A stretch of 60,600 bases of DNA from Planctomycetota bacterium (GTDB taxonomy: Bacteria > Planctomycetota > UBA1135 > UBA2386). The notes below the pieces were generated by a model. That model searched no databases. It worked only from the letters and a program-made list of their open reading frames with translations, and had not been told where the DNA came from. A program made the translations under genes and the position numbers. Shown one piece after another: positions 4,351 through 10,747 of the stretch. How positions within the stretch are numbered: the stretch's first letter is position 1; each line of letters opens with the position of its first letter. The stretch lies in NCBI GenBank assembly GCA_016872675.1, contig VGZG01000012.1:1-60600 (forward strand), read 5' to 3'.

Positions 4351-5700
4351 ATGGCGCCAGCGCTGCAAGCCCGCGATCTCGTCGTCCGCTCCCCGATGGG
4401 CGCGGCGATCGCCGTGCCCGCGCTCGACGTGCCGCGCGGCGGGGCGGTGGCGCTGGTGGGGCCGTCCGGCTGCGGCAAATCGACCGTGCTGGCGGCGGCC
4501 CTGGGCCTGCTTCGCCGACCCGGCTGGTCGGTCGCCGGCAGCGTCGCCGCGGACGGCGAGGACCTGCTTGCGGCGTCGCCGCAATGGCGGCGTCGCTGGT
4601 TGGCGAACCGCGTTGCCGTATTGCCGCAGGATCCCCACGCTGCGTTCGATCCACTGGTGCCGCTCGGCCGCCAACTCGTCGACTTGACCGGCCAGTCGCG
4701 CGAGGAGTGCGTGCGTATGCTCGGATGGCTTGGCGTCGTCGCGCCCGGCGACGTCGCCGGCCGGCTGTCGGCGCAGGTGTCGGGCGGGCAAGCGCAGCGG
4801 GCGCTGTTGGCGGTCGCGTTCTTGCGCCGGCCAGCGCTGTGCGTCGTCGACGAGCCGAGCGCGCATCTCGACGAAGCGACGCTCGCTGAAGTCGAGGCGC
4901 GACTCACCGTGCTGCAGCGCGACGGCTGCGGGTTGTTGTTGGCGACGCACGACCTGCGCTTTGCGCGCGCGCTGCAGGCCACGCCGCTGCGCTGCGTCGA
5001 CGGCGTGTTTGCGGCATGCGCCGAGGAGGCGGCGGCCTGGCCGGCACGCGAATCGAACACGTCGCCCGGCGCGCCCGTGCTGGCCGCGCGCGGACTCGCC
5101 GTCGGCGCGCCTGGCGCTCATGTGATCCAGGGTTGCGACCTGCAGGTGCGCGGTGGCGAAGTGGTCGCCTTCGTCGGCCCGTCTGGCTGCGGCAAGACGA
5201 CGCTGTTGCGCGCGCTCGCCGGCCAGATCACGCCGGCCGCCGGCGCGGTGGAGCGGCCGCGCCGCCGGACGGCGGTGCAGCTCGTCGCCCAGGATGCATC
5301 CGGCTCGCTGACGCCCAGCGCGCGGGTCCGCCGGCTCGTCGCCGAGGCCTGCGCACCGGGCTTCGACGTCGTTGCCGCCGCCGCCGCGCTTGGTCTGCCG
5401 GCGGCGGCGCTTGATCGCGCCCGCGAGGCATTGTCGAGCGGCGAGCGCCGCCGCGCCGCGTTGCTGCGCGCGCTCGCCGTGCAGCCCGATGTGCTGCTAC
5501 TCGACGAGCCGACGGCTTCGCTCGATCGCGCAACGGCCGTCAGCGTGGTCGAAGCGGCGCTACAGTTGCGGCGCGAGCGCGGGACTGCCATCGTTCTCGC
5601 CACGCACGACCTTGAACTCGCGGTAGCCGTCGCCGATCGCGTGCTCGTGCTCCGCGGAGGCCAGCTATGCCAGTTCGTCCCGTCTTCGTCGCCGCGCTGA
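4351..5700 (+). CDS. Tandem-domain ABC transporter ATPase (oligopeptide/nickel-type)
   Basis: 449 residues holding two ATP-binding cassettes, like YejF/GsiA-type fused DppD-DppF ATPases. Cassette 1: Walker A GPSGCGKS at 37-44, signature VSGGQAQ at 143-149, Walker B CVVDEP near 164-169, H-loop ATHD near 199. Cassette 2: Walker A GPSGCGKT at 276-283, signature LSSGERR at 361-367, Walker B VLLLDEP at 381-387. It would drive import of peptides or similar solutes, but no permease genes are adjacent. The only peptide-type binding protein in the window is 50 kb away (55315). An upstream in-frame ATG at 4333 is possible; 4351 is preceded by an AGGG-like site. Its last 34 bases overlap the next gene. 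Confidence 0.88.
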   Translation: MAPALQARDLVVRSPMGAAIAVPALDVPRGGAVALVGPSGCGKSTVLAAALGLLRRPGWSVAGSVAADGEDLLAASPQWRRRWLANRVAVLPQDPHAAFDPLVPLGRQLVDLTGQSREECVRMLGWLGVVAPGDVAGRLSAQVSGGQAQRALLAVAFLRRPALCVVDEPSAHLDEATLAEVEARLTVLQRDGCGLLLATHDLRFARALQATPLRCVDGVFAACAEEAAAWPARESNTSPGAPVLAARGLAVGAPGAHVIQGCDLQVRGGEVVAFVGPSGCGKTTLLRALAGQITPAAGAVERPRRRTAVQLVAQDASGSLTPSARVRRLVAEACAPGFDVVAAAAALGLPAAALDRAREALSSGERRRAALLRALAVQPDVLLLDEPTASLDRATAVSVVEAALQLRRERGTAIVLATHDLELAVAVADRVLVLRGGQLCQFVPSSSPR

Positions 5701-6905
5701 TCGCCGCCGCCGCCGACGCGCAAGCGCCGGCGTCCGCGTCGGCGACGTCGCCGTGTCCTGCCGTCGCGTTGCTGTACGAGCACGTCGACGCCGCCGGCGA
5801 ACGGCTGCCGCGAGACGTCGCCGACGTGCTGGCGGCGGTGCGCTTTGCGCGCGGCAAGGCGGCGGCGCCCAAGGCGCAGGCGAGCCTGCACGTCGACGAT
5901 GCCTGCACGTGCCTCAGCGTGGCGGCGCGCGACCCAGCGCAGCTGGCGGCGTTCGTCGCCGCGTGCGACGACCTGTCGGGCAGCGACGACGAGTTGGCGC
6001 TGGCCGCCGCCGCCGCCGCGCTGCAGGCCGACGACGAACGGCACCTGTTTCCGGGCGGCGCGCATGCTGCTGCCGCGCGCGCAGCGCTGTGGCCGTCGGC
6101 GCCGCAGCGGGCCGGAGCCGAGGCGCTGGCGGCACTGACGCCCGCCTCGTTGCGTGCGCTGGCGACGGTCGCGCGTCGCACGGCCGCGACCGGCAATGGC
6201 GCGATCGACGCGGCGCTGGCGTACGCCCTCGCCACGCGGCAGCGCCTCGACCTGCCGATGGCTATCAATCTGGCGGGACCGGCTCCGGGCGCCGGCGACG
6301 AACTGGTGAGCGAACTGCATCCGCGCGTCGACCAGCCGTTCGTGGCGCTCGCCTTCGCGGTGCCCGCCGACCTCGATCGCGCGGCGCTGGCGGTCGCGTT
6401 AGCCATCGCGCGCGAACGCGCCGCCGCCCTCTGGCCGCTGCGCGGCAGCGAACTGCGCGCGCGCACACCGTACGTCGCGTGGTCGTGGTTGCACGATGAG
6501 CGCGTCGTCACGGTCCACCGGCGCGGCTTCGCGCCGATCGCGGTGCGGCCGGGCGAGCGTTGCGCCGACGCTGCGGCCGAATGCGAAGCGACCGTCGCCG
6601 AAGTGCGCGCGCTGCTCGCCGAGTTGCAGCGGCCGTTCGCGGCGGGGGAGATGGTCGCAGGCCGCGACCGCGCCGCGGCGGAACTCGGCCTGCGCCTCGC
6701 GCTCGACGTCGCCGATCCGGCCAGCGCAGCGCTGGCGTTGCGGCAGCAGATGGTGCGATACCGCCATGGCATCGACGCCGCCGCGCTTGCCGCGGTTGAC
6801 GCCGCGGCCGCGACCGCCGCCCTTCAGCGCGTGCTCGCTGCGCCGCGCCAATGGCACGCCTTGCTGCCTTCGCCGTCGCCGGCCAAGGGCTGGCGGCCGC
6901 GGTGA
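5667..6905 (+). CDS. Secreted protein, possibly a degenerate M16 (insulinase-like) peptidase
   Basis: 412 residues, with a hydrophobic export signal ending near AAAADAQ. The pattern is that of an M16 half: an early segment, a loop like FPGGAHAAAARAALW followed by LAALTPASLRALATVARR (the usual receiver of the M16 linker), and a closing AALQRVLAAPRQWHALLPSP. The metal-binding HxxEH is not visible, so this would be a non-catalytic M16-like subunit or a diverged family. The start codon lies inside the ABC ATPase gene (34-base overlap), which suggests co-expression. Family assignment rests only on layout and is tentative; it should be read as a secreted protein of unknown function otherwise. Confidence 0.6.
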   Translation: MPVRPVFVAALIAAAADAQAPASASATSPCPAVALLYEHVDAAGERLPRDVADVLAAVRFARGKAAAPKAQASLHVDDACTCLSVAARDPAQLAAFVAACDDLSGSDDELALAAAAAALQADDERHLFPGGAHAAAARAALWPSAPQRAGAEALAALTPASLRALATVARRTAATGNGAIDAALAYALATRQRLDLPMAINLAGPAPGAGDELVSELHPRVDQPFVALAFAVPADLDRAALAVALAIARERAAALWPLRGSELRARTPYVAWSWLHDERVVTVHRRGFAPIAVRPGERCADAAAECEATVAEVRALLAELQRPFAAGEMVAGRDRAAAELGLRLALDVADPASAALALRQQMVRYRHGIDAAALAAVDAAAATAALQRVLAAPRQWHALLPSPSPAKGWRPR

Positions 6906-6983: not shown

Positions 6984-8828
6984 ATGGGCTTCATCAACGT
7001 CGCCGAGCGCACGATCAACGCCAAGCTCGTCTACTACGGCGTTGGCCTCGGCGGCAAGACGACCAGCCTGCAGCAGGTGCACGGCATCCTGTGCCCGCGC
7101 AACGAAGTCCAGCTGGTGTCGATCAACACCGAGGAGGAATCGACGCTGCTGTTCGACTTCCTGCCGATCAATCTCGGCCAGGTTGGCGGCTTCAAGATCC
7201 GCATCCAGGGCTTCACCGTTCCGGGTCAGCCGAAGTACCGGCAGATGCGCAAGTACGTGCTGCAGGGCGCCGACGCGGTGGTGTTCGTCGTCGACAGCCA
7301 GCGCAGCCGCATGCAGGAGAACCTCGAGTCGCTGCAGAGCATGCGCGACAACCTGCGCACCAGCAGCGGCACCTCCGAGGACATCCCGATCATCGTCCAG
7401 TACAACAAGCGGGACCTGCCTGACGTGATGGGCGAGGAGGAGCTGAACCGCTCCTTCTGCTTCCGCGACGACATCGCGACCTTCCCGTCGGTTGCCACGG
7501 AGGGCCAGGGCGTGTTCGAGGCGTTCGTCGAGGCGGCGTCGCTGCTCGTCGAGCGCAAGGTGACGCTGTACGGGCTCGGCCGCGGCAAGGCTGAACCGCG
7601 CGAGGTCGCCAATGGCGTGCGCCAGAAGCTGTGGACGATCTGCGACGACGTCCGTCGCGCCCGTGCCGTGGTGCCGGCTGCGGACCTGCCGCAGACGCGC
7701 CTTGCGTTCGCCGATGGCGCCGGGATCGACGGCGACGACGTCGCACCGATCGAGCTGCTCGCCACAAAGCAACGCCGGTTGGCGGCGCCGCCGCCTGCGC
7801 AGGAGGGCGCAGACGAGCCGCTCGGCTTGTCGTACGAACTGCGCGACTCGTCCGCCGCGCTGTCGTCGGCGAAACCGCGCGCGCTCGAAGTGCTGAGCGA
7901 CGACGATCTGCAGATCGACTTCGCCGCTGGCCTGACGGCCAACGTCGAAGCCGTCGCCGACGTGGCGCCGCTGGCCCCGACCGTGCGGCTCGACGACGGC
8001 GACCCGAGGTTGGTCCACAATTTGGCGCAGTCGAACCTCGAACTGGCCAAGCGCTACGGCGAGCTCGACGAGAAGCGGCTGCTGCTCGACCACAAGGTGC
8101 AGGAACTCGTCGAGGCCGCGCAGCAGACGGCGCACGATCTCAACCGGCCGCTCAGCGCCATGCGCCTGATGCTGTCGACGATCGACAAGGGCTACCTGGG
8201 CCAGGTCAGCGACCCGGTGCGCCAGGCGGTGCAGACCGGCCTGCAGGCCGTGCACCAGATGGAGCGTCTGGTCCACGACCTGCTCGACAGTTCGCGCCTC
8301 GACCACGATGGCGTGCAGCTGCAGTTCACCGAGTGCGACCTGACGCTGCTCCTTGCCGACGTGCTGCGCACGCTGCGCTTCGAGCTGCAGGAGAAGGGGG
8401 TGCAGCTGCGCGTCGATCCGCTGCCGGTCGTTCGCGCCGACGGTTGGGCGCTTAGCAAGGTGTTCCTGAACCTGCTCAGCAACGCCATCGCGTATGCCAA
8501 GCCGGGCGAGGCGCCTTGGGTGCACATCTACGCCGAGGAGGGCGCGGATGAATGGCGTGTCGCCGTCGCCGACCGCGGCATCGGCGTGCCCGCCGCCGAC
8601 CACCCGCGGTTGTTCCGTCGCTTCGAACGCGGCAGCAACACTGCCGGCACCAGCGGCACCGGCCTCGGCCTGCACATCGTCAAGGAACTGGTGCTGGGCC
8701 ACGGCGGCGACGTGACGTTCGCGTCCGTGGTCGGCGAGGGCGCGACCTTCGTGGTGCACCTGCCGAAGCGCCCGGTGCAGGCGCCGCACTCGCCGACCAG
8801 CGCGGTGGCGGTCCGCTACGATCGCTGA
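6984..8828 (+). CDS. MglA-like small GTPase fused to a histidine kinase
   Basis: 614 residues in one uninterrupted frame. Residues 1-200 are an MglA-family Ras-like GTPase: P-loop GVGLGGKT (19-26), the MglA-typical LLFDFLP and TVPGQPKY blocks (56-85), and the base-recognition motif NKRD (141-144). Residues 200-345 form a variable linker. A predicted coiled coil (about 350-380) leads into a HisKA-like helix with candidate phospho-acceptor His384 in AHDLNRPLSAM. The HATPase domain follows: N-box LLSNAIAYA near 497-505, G1 ADRGIGV near 529-535, G2 GTGLGLHIV at 558-566. No membrane segment and no receiver domain are present, so it is probably cytosolic, sensing or producing a GTP-linked polarity or motility signal. 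No separate MglB or response regulator is adjacent. See findings. Confidence 0.92.
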   Translation: MGFINVAERTINAKLVYYGVGLGGKTTSLQQVHGILCPRNEVQLVSINTEEESTLLFDFLPINLGQVGGFKIRIQGFTVPGQPKYRQMRKYVLQGADAVVFVVDSQRSRMQENLESLQSMRDNLRTSSGTSEDIPIIVQYNKRDLPDVMGEEELNRSFCFRDDIATFPSVATEGQGVFEAFVEAASLLVERKVTLYGLGRGKAEPREVANGVRQKLWTICDDVRRARAVVPAADLPQTRLAFADGAGIDGDDVAPIELLATKQRRLAAPPPAQEGADEPLGLSYELRDSSAALSSAKPRALEVLSDDDLQIDFAAGLTANVEAVADVAPLAPTVRLDDGDPRLVHNLAQSNLELAKRYGELDEKRLLLDHKVQELVEAAQQTAHDLNRPLSAMRLMLSTIDKGYLGQVSDPVRQAVQTGLQAVHQMERLVHDLLDSSRLDHDGVQLQFTECDLTLLLADVLRTLRFELQEKGVQLRVDPLPVVRADGWALSKVFLNLLSNAIAYAKPGEAPWVHIYAEEGADEWRVAVADRGIGVPAADHPRLFRRFERGSNTAGTSGTGLGLHIVKELVLGHGGDVTFASVVGEGATFVVHLPKRPVQAPHSPTSAVAVRYDR

Positions 8829-9245: not shown

Positions 9246-9626
9246 TCAGTGGCGGGCCAGCCCGTGCAGGAAACGCAGCAGCGCGCCGAGGGCGGCGCGC
9301 GAACTCGGGTGATAGGCGCCGAGCCGCGCCTCGAACGCTGGGCGATCCCTGCCACTTAGCGGCGGCCCGAAGTTGGCGAGCGGCAGCGCCGGATCGACCG
9401 TGCGCAGCGATGTCATGATGGCCCGGGCCAGACCGGGCCGGACGTCGGGCGCCACCACGAGGCAGTCGTGGCCGCCGCTGGCGAAGAACGCCGTCCGCGC
9501 CGCGCCCGCGTCGCGTATGACGTCGACGGCGATGCCATGGGCGGCAAGGCCCGCCAGCAGCGGCGCCATGGTGGCCTCCTGTCCGAGTAGGGCCAGCACC
9601 TCGACTTGGCGACTGTGCGCGCTCAC
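9246..9626 (-). CDS. Small receiver-like (pseudo-receiver) protein
   Basis: 126 residues from a GTG start at 9626; an AAGG lies about 13 bases upstream. The alternation of strands and helices (VEVLALLG, then AFFASGGHDCLVVAPDV, then IMTSLRTVDPALPLANFG) resembles a response-regulator receiver domain. The position expected for the phospho-acceptor aspartate after the third strand is alanine, and the N-terminal acidic pair and the C-terminal lysine are not seen. If the fold is right, it is a non-phosphorylatable receiver. The minus gene ends just after tRNA-His and is divergent from the secreted protein gene at 9695. A larger frame extends upstream, but its composition looks non-coding. Confidence 0.6.
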   Translation of the reverse strand: MSAHSRQVEVLALLGQEATMAPLLAGLAAHGIAVDVIRDAGAARTAFFASGGHDCLVVAPDVRPGLARAIMTSLRTVDPALPLANFGPPLSGRDRPAFEARLGAYHPSSRAALGALLRFLHGLARH

Positions 9627-9694
9627 GTCCAGGTGCCTTCGGCAAGATCGCTGGCAGGGGTCAAGGGCGGTCGTCCCGAAGGCCGAACAAGCCG

Positions 9695-10747
9695 ATGCCA
9701 ATGGAACGTGCCGGCGTAGCCATCTTGTTCGCGGCGTGCGGGCTGCTGCCGGCCCAGGGTCTGATCGTTGCGCCGGCATCGCACGCCGCCCAGGAGGGCA
9801 CCGGCGGCACCAACGTGCCGTTCGGCCGCAGCTCGCCGACGCGCGTGCAGTACGTCTACGACGCGATGCTGTTCCAGGGGCCGGTGACGATCACCGGGCT
9901 CGCCTTTCGGCTCGATGGCTTGACGACGGCGGCGGCGAAGACGGTCGATTGCGAGTTTCGCCTGTCGACGTTGCCGCACGCGCTGACCGCGCTCGCGACC
10001 GACTTCGCTGGCAATCGCGGCGCCGACGAGGCGATCGTGCTGCCGCGGCAGTTGCTGACGTTGTCGGCGGGCAGCAGCGGCGCGTCGCCCAATGCGTTCC
10101 TGCCGACGATCGCGCTGACGTCGCCCTTCGCCTACGACCCGGCGCTTGGCGGCCTCGTGCTCGAACTCGTCGTGCACGGCCCGCCGTTCGGCGGCTACAC
10201 GCTGGACTCGACGTTCGTCTGCAACAGCCAGGATTTGCCGATCGGTCCGGCGTCGTGCGTCGGCAGCAATGCGCTGCCGCTGCGCGTCGGCAGCAGTTCG
10301 CCGCAGGTGATGTGGGGCAGGCCGTGGGTGGCGCAGGCGACGCAGGCGCTGCCCGCCGCGCTCGTCGTGCTGGCGCTCGGCACCATGGAGAACGGCGTGT
10401 GGGCGGGCTTGCCGCTGCCGTTTGACCTGCAGCCGATCGGCGCGCCGGGCTGCTTTCTGTCGATCGACGTCGCCGGCTCGTGGGCTGGGGTCGCGGCGAG
10501 CGACGGCGCGTGCGCGTTCCCGTTCACGTTGCCGAACACGCCAACGGCAGTCGGCGCGTGGCTGCGCTTCCAGGCCGCCGCGTTCGACGTCGATGCCAAC
10601 GCGCTCGGCCTCGTCACCAGCCAGGCGCAGAAGGCGCAAGTGTGCGGCTGGGAGCCGGTCGCGCGGCTGTGGTCGAGCGGCGTGGGGGCGCTGACCGGCA
10701 GCCGCGAGATCGGCGTCGCGGCTGTCGTGCGCTTGACGGTCCAATGA
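9695..10747 (+). CDS. Secreted protein with planctomycete-type C-terminal module
   Basis: 350 residues. A signal peptide (MERAGVAILFAACGLLPAQG, using the second ATG at 9701) is followed by a beta-rich, low-charge extracellular sequence with few lysines. The C-terminal third contains APGCFLSIDVAGSW, then FPFTLPNTPTAVGAWLRFQ and a final VVRLTV strand. This pattern recurs at the ends of many secreted proteins of Planctomycetota and is seen again at 29514-31349. It may be a sorting or surface-anchoring domain. The central part has no enzyme motif I recognise. Function unknown. Confidence 0.75.
   Translation: MPMERAGVAILFAACGLLPAQGLIVAPASHAAQEGTGGTNVPFGRSSPTRVQYVYDAMLFQGPVTITGLAFRLDGLTTAAAKTVDCEFRLSTLPHALTALATDFAGNRGADEAIVLPRQLLTLSAGSSGASPNAFLPTIALTSPFAYDPALGGLVLELVVHGPPFGGYTLDSTFVCNSQDLPIGPASCVGSNALPLRVGSSSPQVMWGRPWVAQATQALPAALVVLALGTMENGVWAGLPLPFDLQPIGAPGCFLSIDVAGSWAGVAASDGACAFPFTLPNTPTAVGAWLRFQAAAFDVDANALGLVTSQAQKAQVCGWEPVARLWSSGVGALTGSREIGVAAVVRLTVQ

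Follow-up and report, generated by a model that had tools for sequence, protein, structure and literature searches.

A conserved fusion of an MglA-type GTPase and a histidine kinase in Planctomycetota, without the arginine finger and possibly gated by GTP

The window analysed here, a stretch of 60,600 nt from a Planctomycetota genome, contains a gene in which an MglA-type GTPase domain and a histidine kinase are joined in one polypeptide (Table 1). We conclude that this fusion is a real and conserved domain architecture, recurrent in at least two phyla and apparently undescribed. Our preferred reading, to which we assign a probability of about one half, is that of a soluble histidine kinase with the MglA-type GTPase as its input, gated by GTP slowly, in one direction and independently of the MglB GAP.

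Table 1 Features of the fusion gene, its receiver-like neighbor and the separate mglB and mglA genes. Positions are those of the window unless a contig is named.
Feature	Position	Strand	Details
Fusion gene, complete	6984..8828	+	614 aa: MglA-type GTPase, linker, coil, HisKA, HATPase_c
MglA-type G domain, residues 1-192	6984..7559	+	MglA in PDB, E about 1e-48
Switch I TEEEST, residues 49-54	7128..7145	+	Ser53 codon TCG at 7140-7142
Linker, residues 193-340	7560..8003	+	variable, acidic, mostly disordered except for a helix at ~205-226
Conserved signaling coil, residues 341-379	8004..8120	+	runs unbroken into the HisKA helix in the model
HisKA (DHp), residues 380-445, His384 within HDLNRPL	8121..8318	+	PF00512, E 7.5e-11
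HATPase_c domain, residues 446-600	8319..8783	+	PF02518, E 2.4e-26
Small receiver-like protein gene	9249-9779	-	conserved close to the fusion at 10 loci within the family
mglB	contig C127, 4631-4987		own genome
mglA, arginine-bearing	contig C127, 5128-5706		about 42% identical to the fusion G domain

The reading frame runs from an ATG to the stop codon without internal stops. Its Pfam matches, all above the cut-off, are Arf (residues 66–180, E 3.7e-10), HisKA (379–441, E 7.5e-11) and HATPase_c (489–596, E 2.4e-26). In a phmmer search against the PDB, residues 1–191 matched the MglA proteins of T. thermophilus and M. xanthus with 168 bits (E about 1e-48) and residues 377–596 the histidine kinase HK853 (E 1e-23). 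The G domain contains the P-loop GVGLGGKTT (residues 19–27), TVPGQ (78–82) and NKRD (141–144), while the N, G1 and G2 boxes of the HATPase_c domain are represented by N496, N500, DxGxG (530–534) and GTGLGL (558–563). The phospho-acceptor H384 is followed by the acidic D385, both invariant. A first-pass annotation had described a G domain, a HisKA domain with His384 and a HATPase domain in one frame, and the motifs are located where it placed them. Group 1 MglA proteins are single-domain proteins of 150–240 aa, a size that the fusion exceeds with its 614 aa. For residues 192–378, no Pfam match to a sensor domain was obtained at E-values up to 5, so that no input other than the G domain can be recognised. 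The coil carries the motif SNxExAxxxxEL, which is also present in the MglA-GAF-HK proteins described below (match to L036, E 5e-4).

An AF2 model of the fusion built from 24 orthologues (mean pLDDT 72, pTM 0.42) recovered both folds, with Foldseek TM-scores of 0.80–0.89 to MglA and up to 0.71 to HK853, and a continuous helix at residues 341–402 leading to HisKA. Across most of residues 235–338 in the linker, pLDDT was below 50. The modeled G domain was closer to GTP-form MglA (TM 0.86–0.89) than to the GDP form (0.80–0.84), a preference to which we give little weight because the switch regions were modeled with low confidence (pLDDT about 50).

Searching 61 genomes of the order, we found the fusion in 30 of the 34 genomes of its own family, some copies being truncated by contig ends, in all seven genomes of family f6 and in the single genome of family f3; it was absent from families f2, f4, f5, f7 and f8. 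A broader sample, 151 genomes from the class, gives a consistent picture. Orthologues from the own family and the two further families show 43–70% sequence identity. Full-length orthologues were obtained from independent assemblies in 24 cases, and all of these have the identical order of parts. Several of the relatives' MAGs apparently come from fresh water, judged by isolate names. The motifs of these orthologues are essentially invariant (P-loop, TVPGQ, NKxD, His384 and the ATPase boxes). Kept across the alignment are M1, K25, T26, T54, TVPGQ with a strictly conserved Gln82, N141, K142 and D144 in the G domain, as well as H384, D385, N496, N500, D530, G532, G534 and the GxGLGL box in the kinase, where P389 in HisKA is invariant too. 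Both catalytic halves vary mainly at third codon positions: the ratio of differences at positions 1 and 2 to those at position 3 is 0.41 for the G domain, 0.57–0.64 for the kinase and 0.78 for the linker. Mean pairwise identity is highest in the G domain (0.75), followed by the kinase (0.55–0.59) and the linker (0.32).

The window genome consists of 182 contigs, and the relatives that appear in named collections are MAGs of Planctomycetota, but a misassembly, a frameshift or a chance joining of two genes can be dismissed with near certainty, because the fusion is repeated in independent orthologues and the third-position bias indicates selection on both halves. The first-pass annotation had named exactly such artefacts, or missing homologues, as what would speak against the fusion, and all of these objections fail in view of the 24 intact orthologues.

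Conservation of the genes neighboring the fusion is confined to its own family. Across families, no operon partner or response regulator is conserved, only the fusion gene itself. A family-conserved gene of 412 aa lies 80 nt upstream on the plus strand (window 5667–6905), for which there are no Pfam or NCBIfam matches. In a genome of the same genus (G001), contig C123 has an additional copy of the kinase half whose frame lacks a G domain (L098:2063-3181). It contains the HDLNRPL box and is 62% identical to residues 358–608; the intact fusion is located on another contig of G001.

In switch I, the first-pass annotation had reported a change from the usual MglA sequence, and this change is present: the block reads TEEEST versus TETDRT in M. 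xanthus and TEDERT in T. thermophilus. Aligned with MglA switch I, the changed residue is Arg53, replaced by Ser53. We compared 29 fusion G domains with 56 others, comprising planctomycete, acidobacterial and solved MglAs. Residue 53 is Ser, Ala or Gln in all 29 clade members and Arg in 53 of the 56 comparison sequences, extending to the whole clade the non-arginine at the arginine-finger position first seen in one protein. Six informative differences were identified (P20 to V/C, R53 to S/A/Q, F56 to L/M, V83 mostly to P, T88 to M and A103 to V), five of which lie within the P-loop, switch I or switch II. With Phe56, the clade has also replaced a residue of the MglB-binding surface.

In M. xanthus, a movement of switch I caused by MglB brings both the catalytic finger Arg53 and the Mg ligand Thr54 into the active site (PMC6876712). 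The MglB surface of MglA is made by Phe56/57/59 (PMC6785124), and MglA Q82L is insensitive to MglB (PMC2907295). In the survey by Wuichet and Sogaard-Andersen, all Group 1 MglA proteins had the arginine, and Groups 2–5 had a threonine with GTPGQ and no arginine (PMC4316618). The fusion, with the TVPGQ of Group 1 and no arginine, therefore fits neither Group 1 nor Groups 2–5. Since Groups 2–5 are also without the arginine, its loss need not stop hydrolysis (PMC4316618). By losing the arginine finger while keeping all other G motifs, the clade offers a natural experiment on the switching-off of MglA. The arginine finger has been lost elsewhere, too: L092 and L094 are stand-alone MglA proteins with Ser53 from another planctomycete family, and L082, an MglA-HK, has Thr at this position.

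Roadblock genes, which the first-pass annotation had suggested to look for elsewhere in the genome, are present: mglB lies beside a separate mglA on contig C127, and contig C114 carries another roadblock gene. Relatives have a single cluster mglB-mglA-roadblock that is conserved within the taxonomic order (e.g., G001:C160 97949–99882), and the cluster of the own genome is probably split between the two contigs. Because a separate arginine-bearing mglA is present, the fusion is an additional paralogue. We rejected the idea of a fusion-specific roadblock gene, as both roadblock genes occur in related genomes and families lacking the fusion. In one fusion-bearing genome (G052), neither roadblock gene was detected at the cut-offs used.

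In the kinase half, the H+4 residue is Arg or Lys in every clade member examined and Arg also in the G001 copy lacking the G domain; the other histidine kinases compared have Thr, Ser, Glu or Ala. Bifunctional HisKA enzymes possess Thr or Asn at H+4, a residue needed for phosphatase activity and not for membership among the kinases. By this established knowledge of HisKA, the always basic H+4 predicts little phosphatase activity, which, judged from the sequence, is probably the condition of the fusion kinase.

According to the GTP-gating model that we prefer, GTP binding would move the switch regions (the beta-2 screw of MglA), the change would pass via the coil of the kinase dimer, and the coil signal would determine autophosphorylation at His384 and the transfer of the phosphoryl group to a response regulator whose gene lies elsewhere. 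The lost arginine finger and the changed MglB-facing surface predict slow GTP hydrolysis insensitive to the MglB GAP, so that the GTP state would be long-lived or dependent on another partner. Such a slow, one-way GTP-gated kinase would work alongside the ordinary mglB-mglA system. In favor of this model are the intact and conserved halves, the coil that is continuous with the DHp in the model, and the clade-specific changes in nucleotide-binding and switch elements. Against it we count the pTM of only 0.42 for the domain arrangement, the finding of no cognate response regulator at the locus, and the linker, which with ~150 poorly conserved residues is odd for tight allostery. Furthermore, the kinase half without a G domain in the same-genus genome suggests that the kinase may not always need the G domain.

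The main rival to GTP gating is an anchor role, in which the G domain would serve for localisation or as a scaffold. Bound to GTP most of the time, it would attach the kinase to a polar or membrane-located partner from the MglA system, and the kinase would be nucleotide-independent. The variable, disordered linker would suit a tether, the loss of the arginine finger predicts long-lived GTP binding, and separate mglB-mglA genes are present. The closer similarity of the modeled G domain to GTP-form MglA points in the same direction, but at low switch confidence. However, conservation of the coil between linker and kinase, and its presence also in the GAF-type fusions, go beyond what a tether needs, and the switch residues including Gln82 are strictly conserved. 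We regard an anchor role as unlikely, though it is the most serious of the alternatives.

Less likely still is a reversed flow of information, with the kinase controlling the GTPase, as proposed for the actinobacterial conservons. These pair a histidine kinase, a roadblock protein and a GTPase and encode no response regulator, with the GTPase as the presumed output (PMC4316618, PMC13343842). Consistent with such a direction, the conserved neighborhood of the fusion has no response regulator, and the receiver-like neighbor is without most receiver residues. On the other hand, orphan kinases are common, with regulators often encoded elsewhere, and the conserved DHp and coil resemble a standard output kinase. 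The neighbor itself yields a confident AF2 model (pLDDT 90) with Foldseek TM-scores of 0.6–0.7 to CheY-type receivers and has no match in Pfam or NCBIfam. We rejected it as the cognate regulator because neither its acidic pair nor its Thr and Lys are conserved, a Pfam match is lacking and it is encoded on the strand opposite to the fusion; it remains a lead.

With the Group 1 MglA of M. xanthus and T. thermophilus, the fusion has in common the fold and motifs including TVPGQ, Thr54 and Gln82, but it differs by its kinase, the missing intrinsic arginine finger and the replaced Phe56. Roco proteins such as LRRK2 likewise combine a GTPase and a kinase in one polypeptide, but consist of Roc-COR domains and a Ser/Thr kinase, with no MglA or HisKA kinase. 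In the actinobacterial conservons (Cvn), an MglA-type GTPase also works with a histidine kinase, but the system consists of four individual proteins, among them roadblock and DUF partners, a membrane histidine kinase and a Group 2 GTPase with GTPGQ (PMC4316618, PMC13343842). Instead of an operon for histidine kinase, roadblock protein, CvnC and GTPase, we found a single fused gene lacking cross-family partners. In the bacterial systems of the papers cited here, Ras-like GTPases and two-component kinases are joined only via separate proteins. Having both ends in one soluble chain makes the coupling of GTP switch and phosphorelay testable with one purified protein.

The first-pass annotation presented the fusion as its strongest candidate for a novel architecture. 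The architecture is not unique, as both other planctomycete classes and Acidobacteriota have fusions of the types MglA-GAF-HK and MglA-HK. In the planctomycete classes, we found proteins of ~700 aa with the arrangement MglA-coil-GAF-HisKA-HATPase (L036 with 707 aa, L042 with 733 aa and others), as well as MglA-GAF (L035, L037) and a GAF-less MglA-HK (L082). In the phylum holding Candidatus Aminicenantes, which we take to be Acidobacteriota in GTDB, at least 21 of 247 sampled genomes encode a G domain and a kinase match in one frame. Forms confirmed there by Pfam are MglA-GAF-HK, MglA-HisKA-HATPase, MglA-PAS-HATPase-receiver and MglA-GAF-PAS, and Arg53 is kept in all Acidobacteriota fusions examined. 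The MglA-coil-GAF-HK proteins of both phyla resemble the fusion in the N-terminal MglA, the coil motif and the C-terminal histidine kinase, but differ by the GAF domain and the kept Arg53, and the planctomycete kinase modules are not sister to that of the fusion.

The G-domain tree unites the planctomycete set in a single clade (100/99), within which the window clade is nested (100/100). The kinase tree instead places the modules of the window clade together with other HDLQ-type kinases from its own order (99/97). We rejected a single origin of all MglA-HK fusions, since the planctomycete G domains cluster and the kinase modules do not. This pattern implies at least two joinings or a kinase swap on a common G-coil stem. 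Recurrent joining with kinase modules of different origin in turn suggests a working GTPase-kinase connection. We tentatively propose that MglA-gated histidine kinases may constitute an undescribed multi-phylum sensor class with a GTPase replacing the ligand-binding sensor, in which the clade without arginine finger and phosphatase residue would be a long-lived, GTP-timed kinase independent of MglB.

The 2014 survey had set aside MglA homologues longer than 240 aa (PMC4316618). Our literature search returned no paper on an MglA-HK fusion, which is weak evidence of novelty because subscription papers were outside its scope, and plasmid records yielded only a lone Deinococcus MglA. Further domain combinations were noticed among the related proteins. 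L130 and L131 from Acidobacteriota, each about 800 aa, combine MglA with PAS, HATPase and a receiver of the response-regulator type, as checked at the domain level for L130, and L035, L037, L139 and L136 from Planctomycetota and Acidobacteriota are MglA-GAF or MglA-GAF-PAS proteins with no recognisable kinase.
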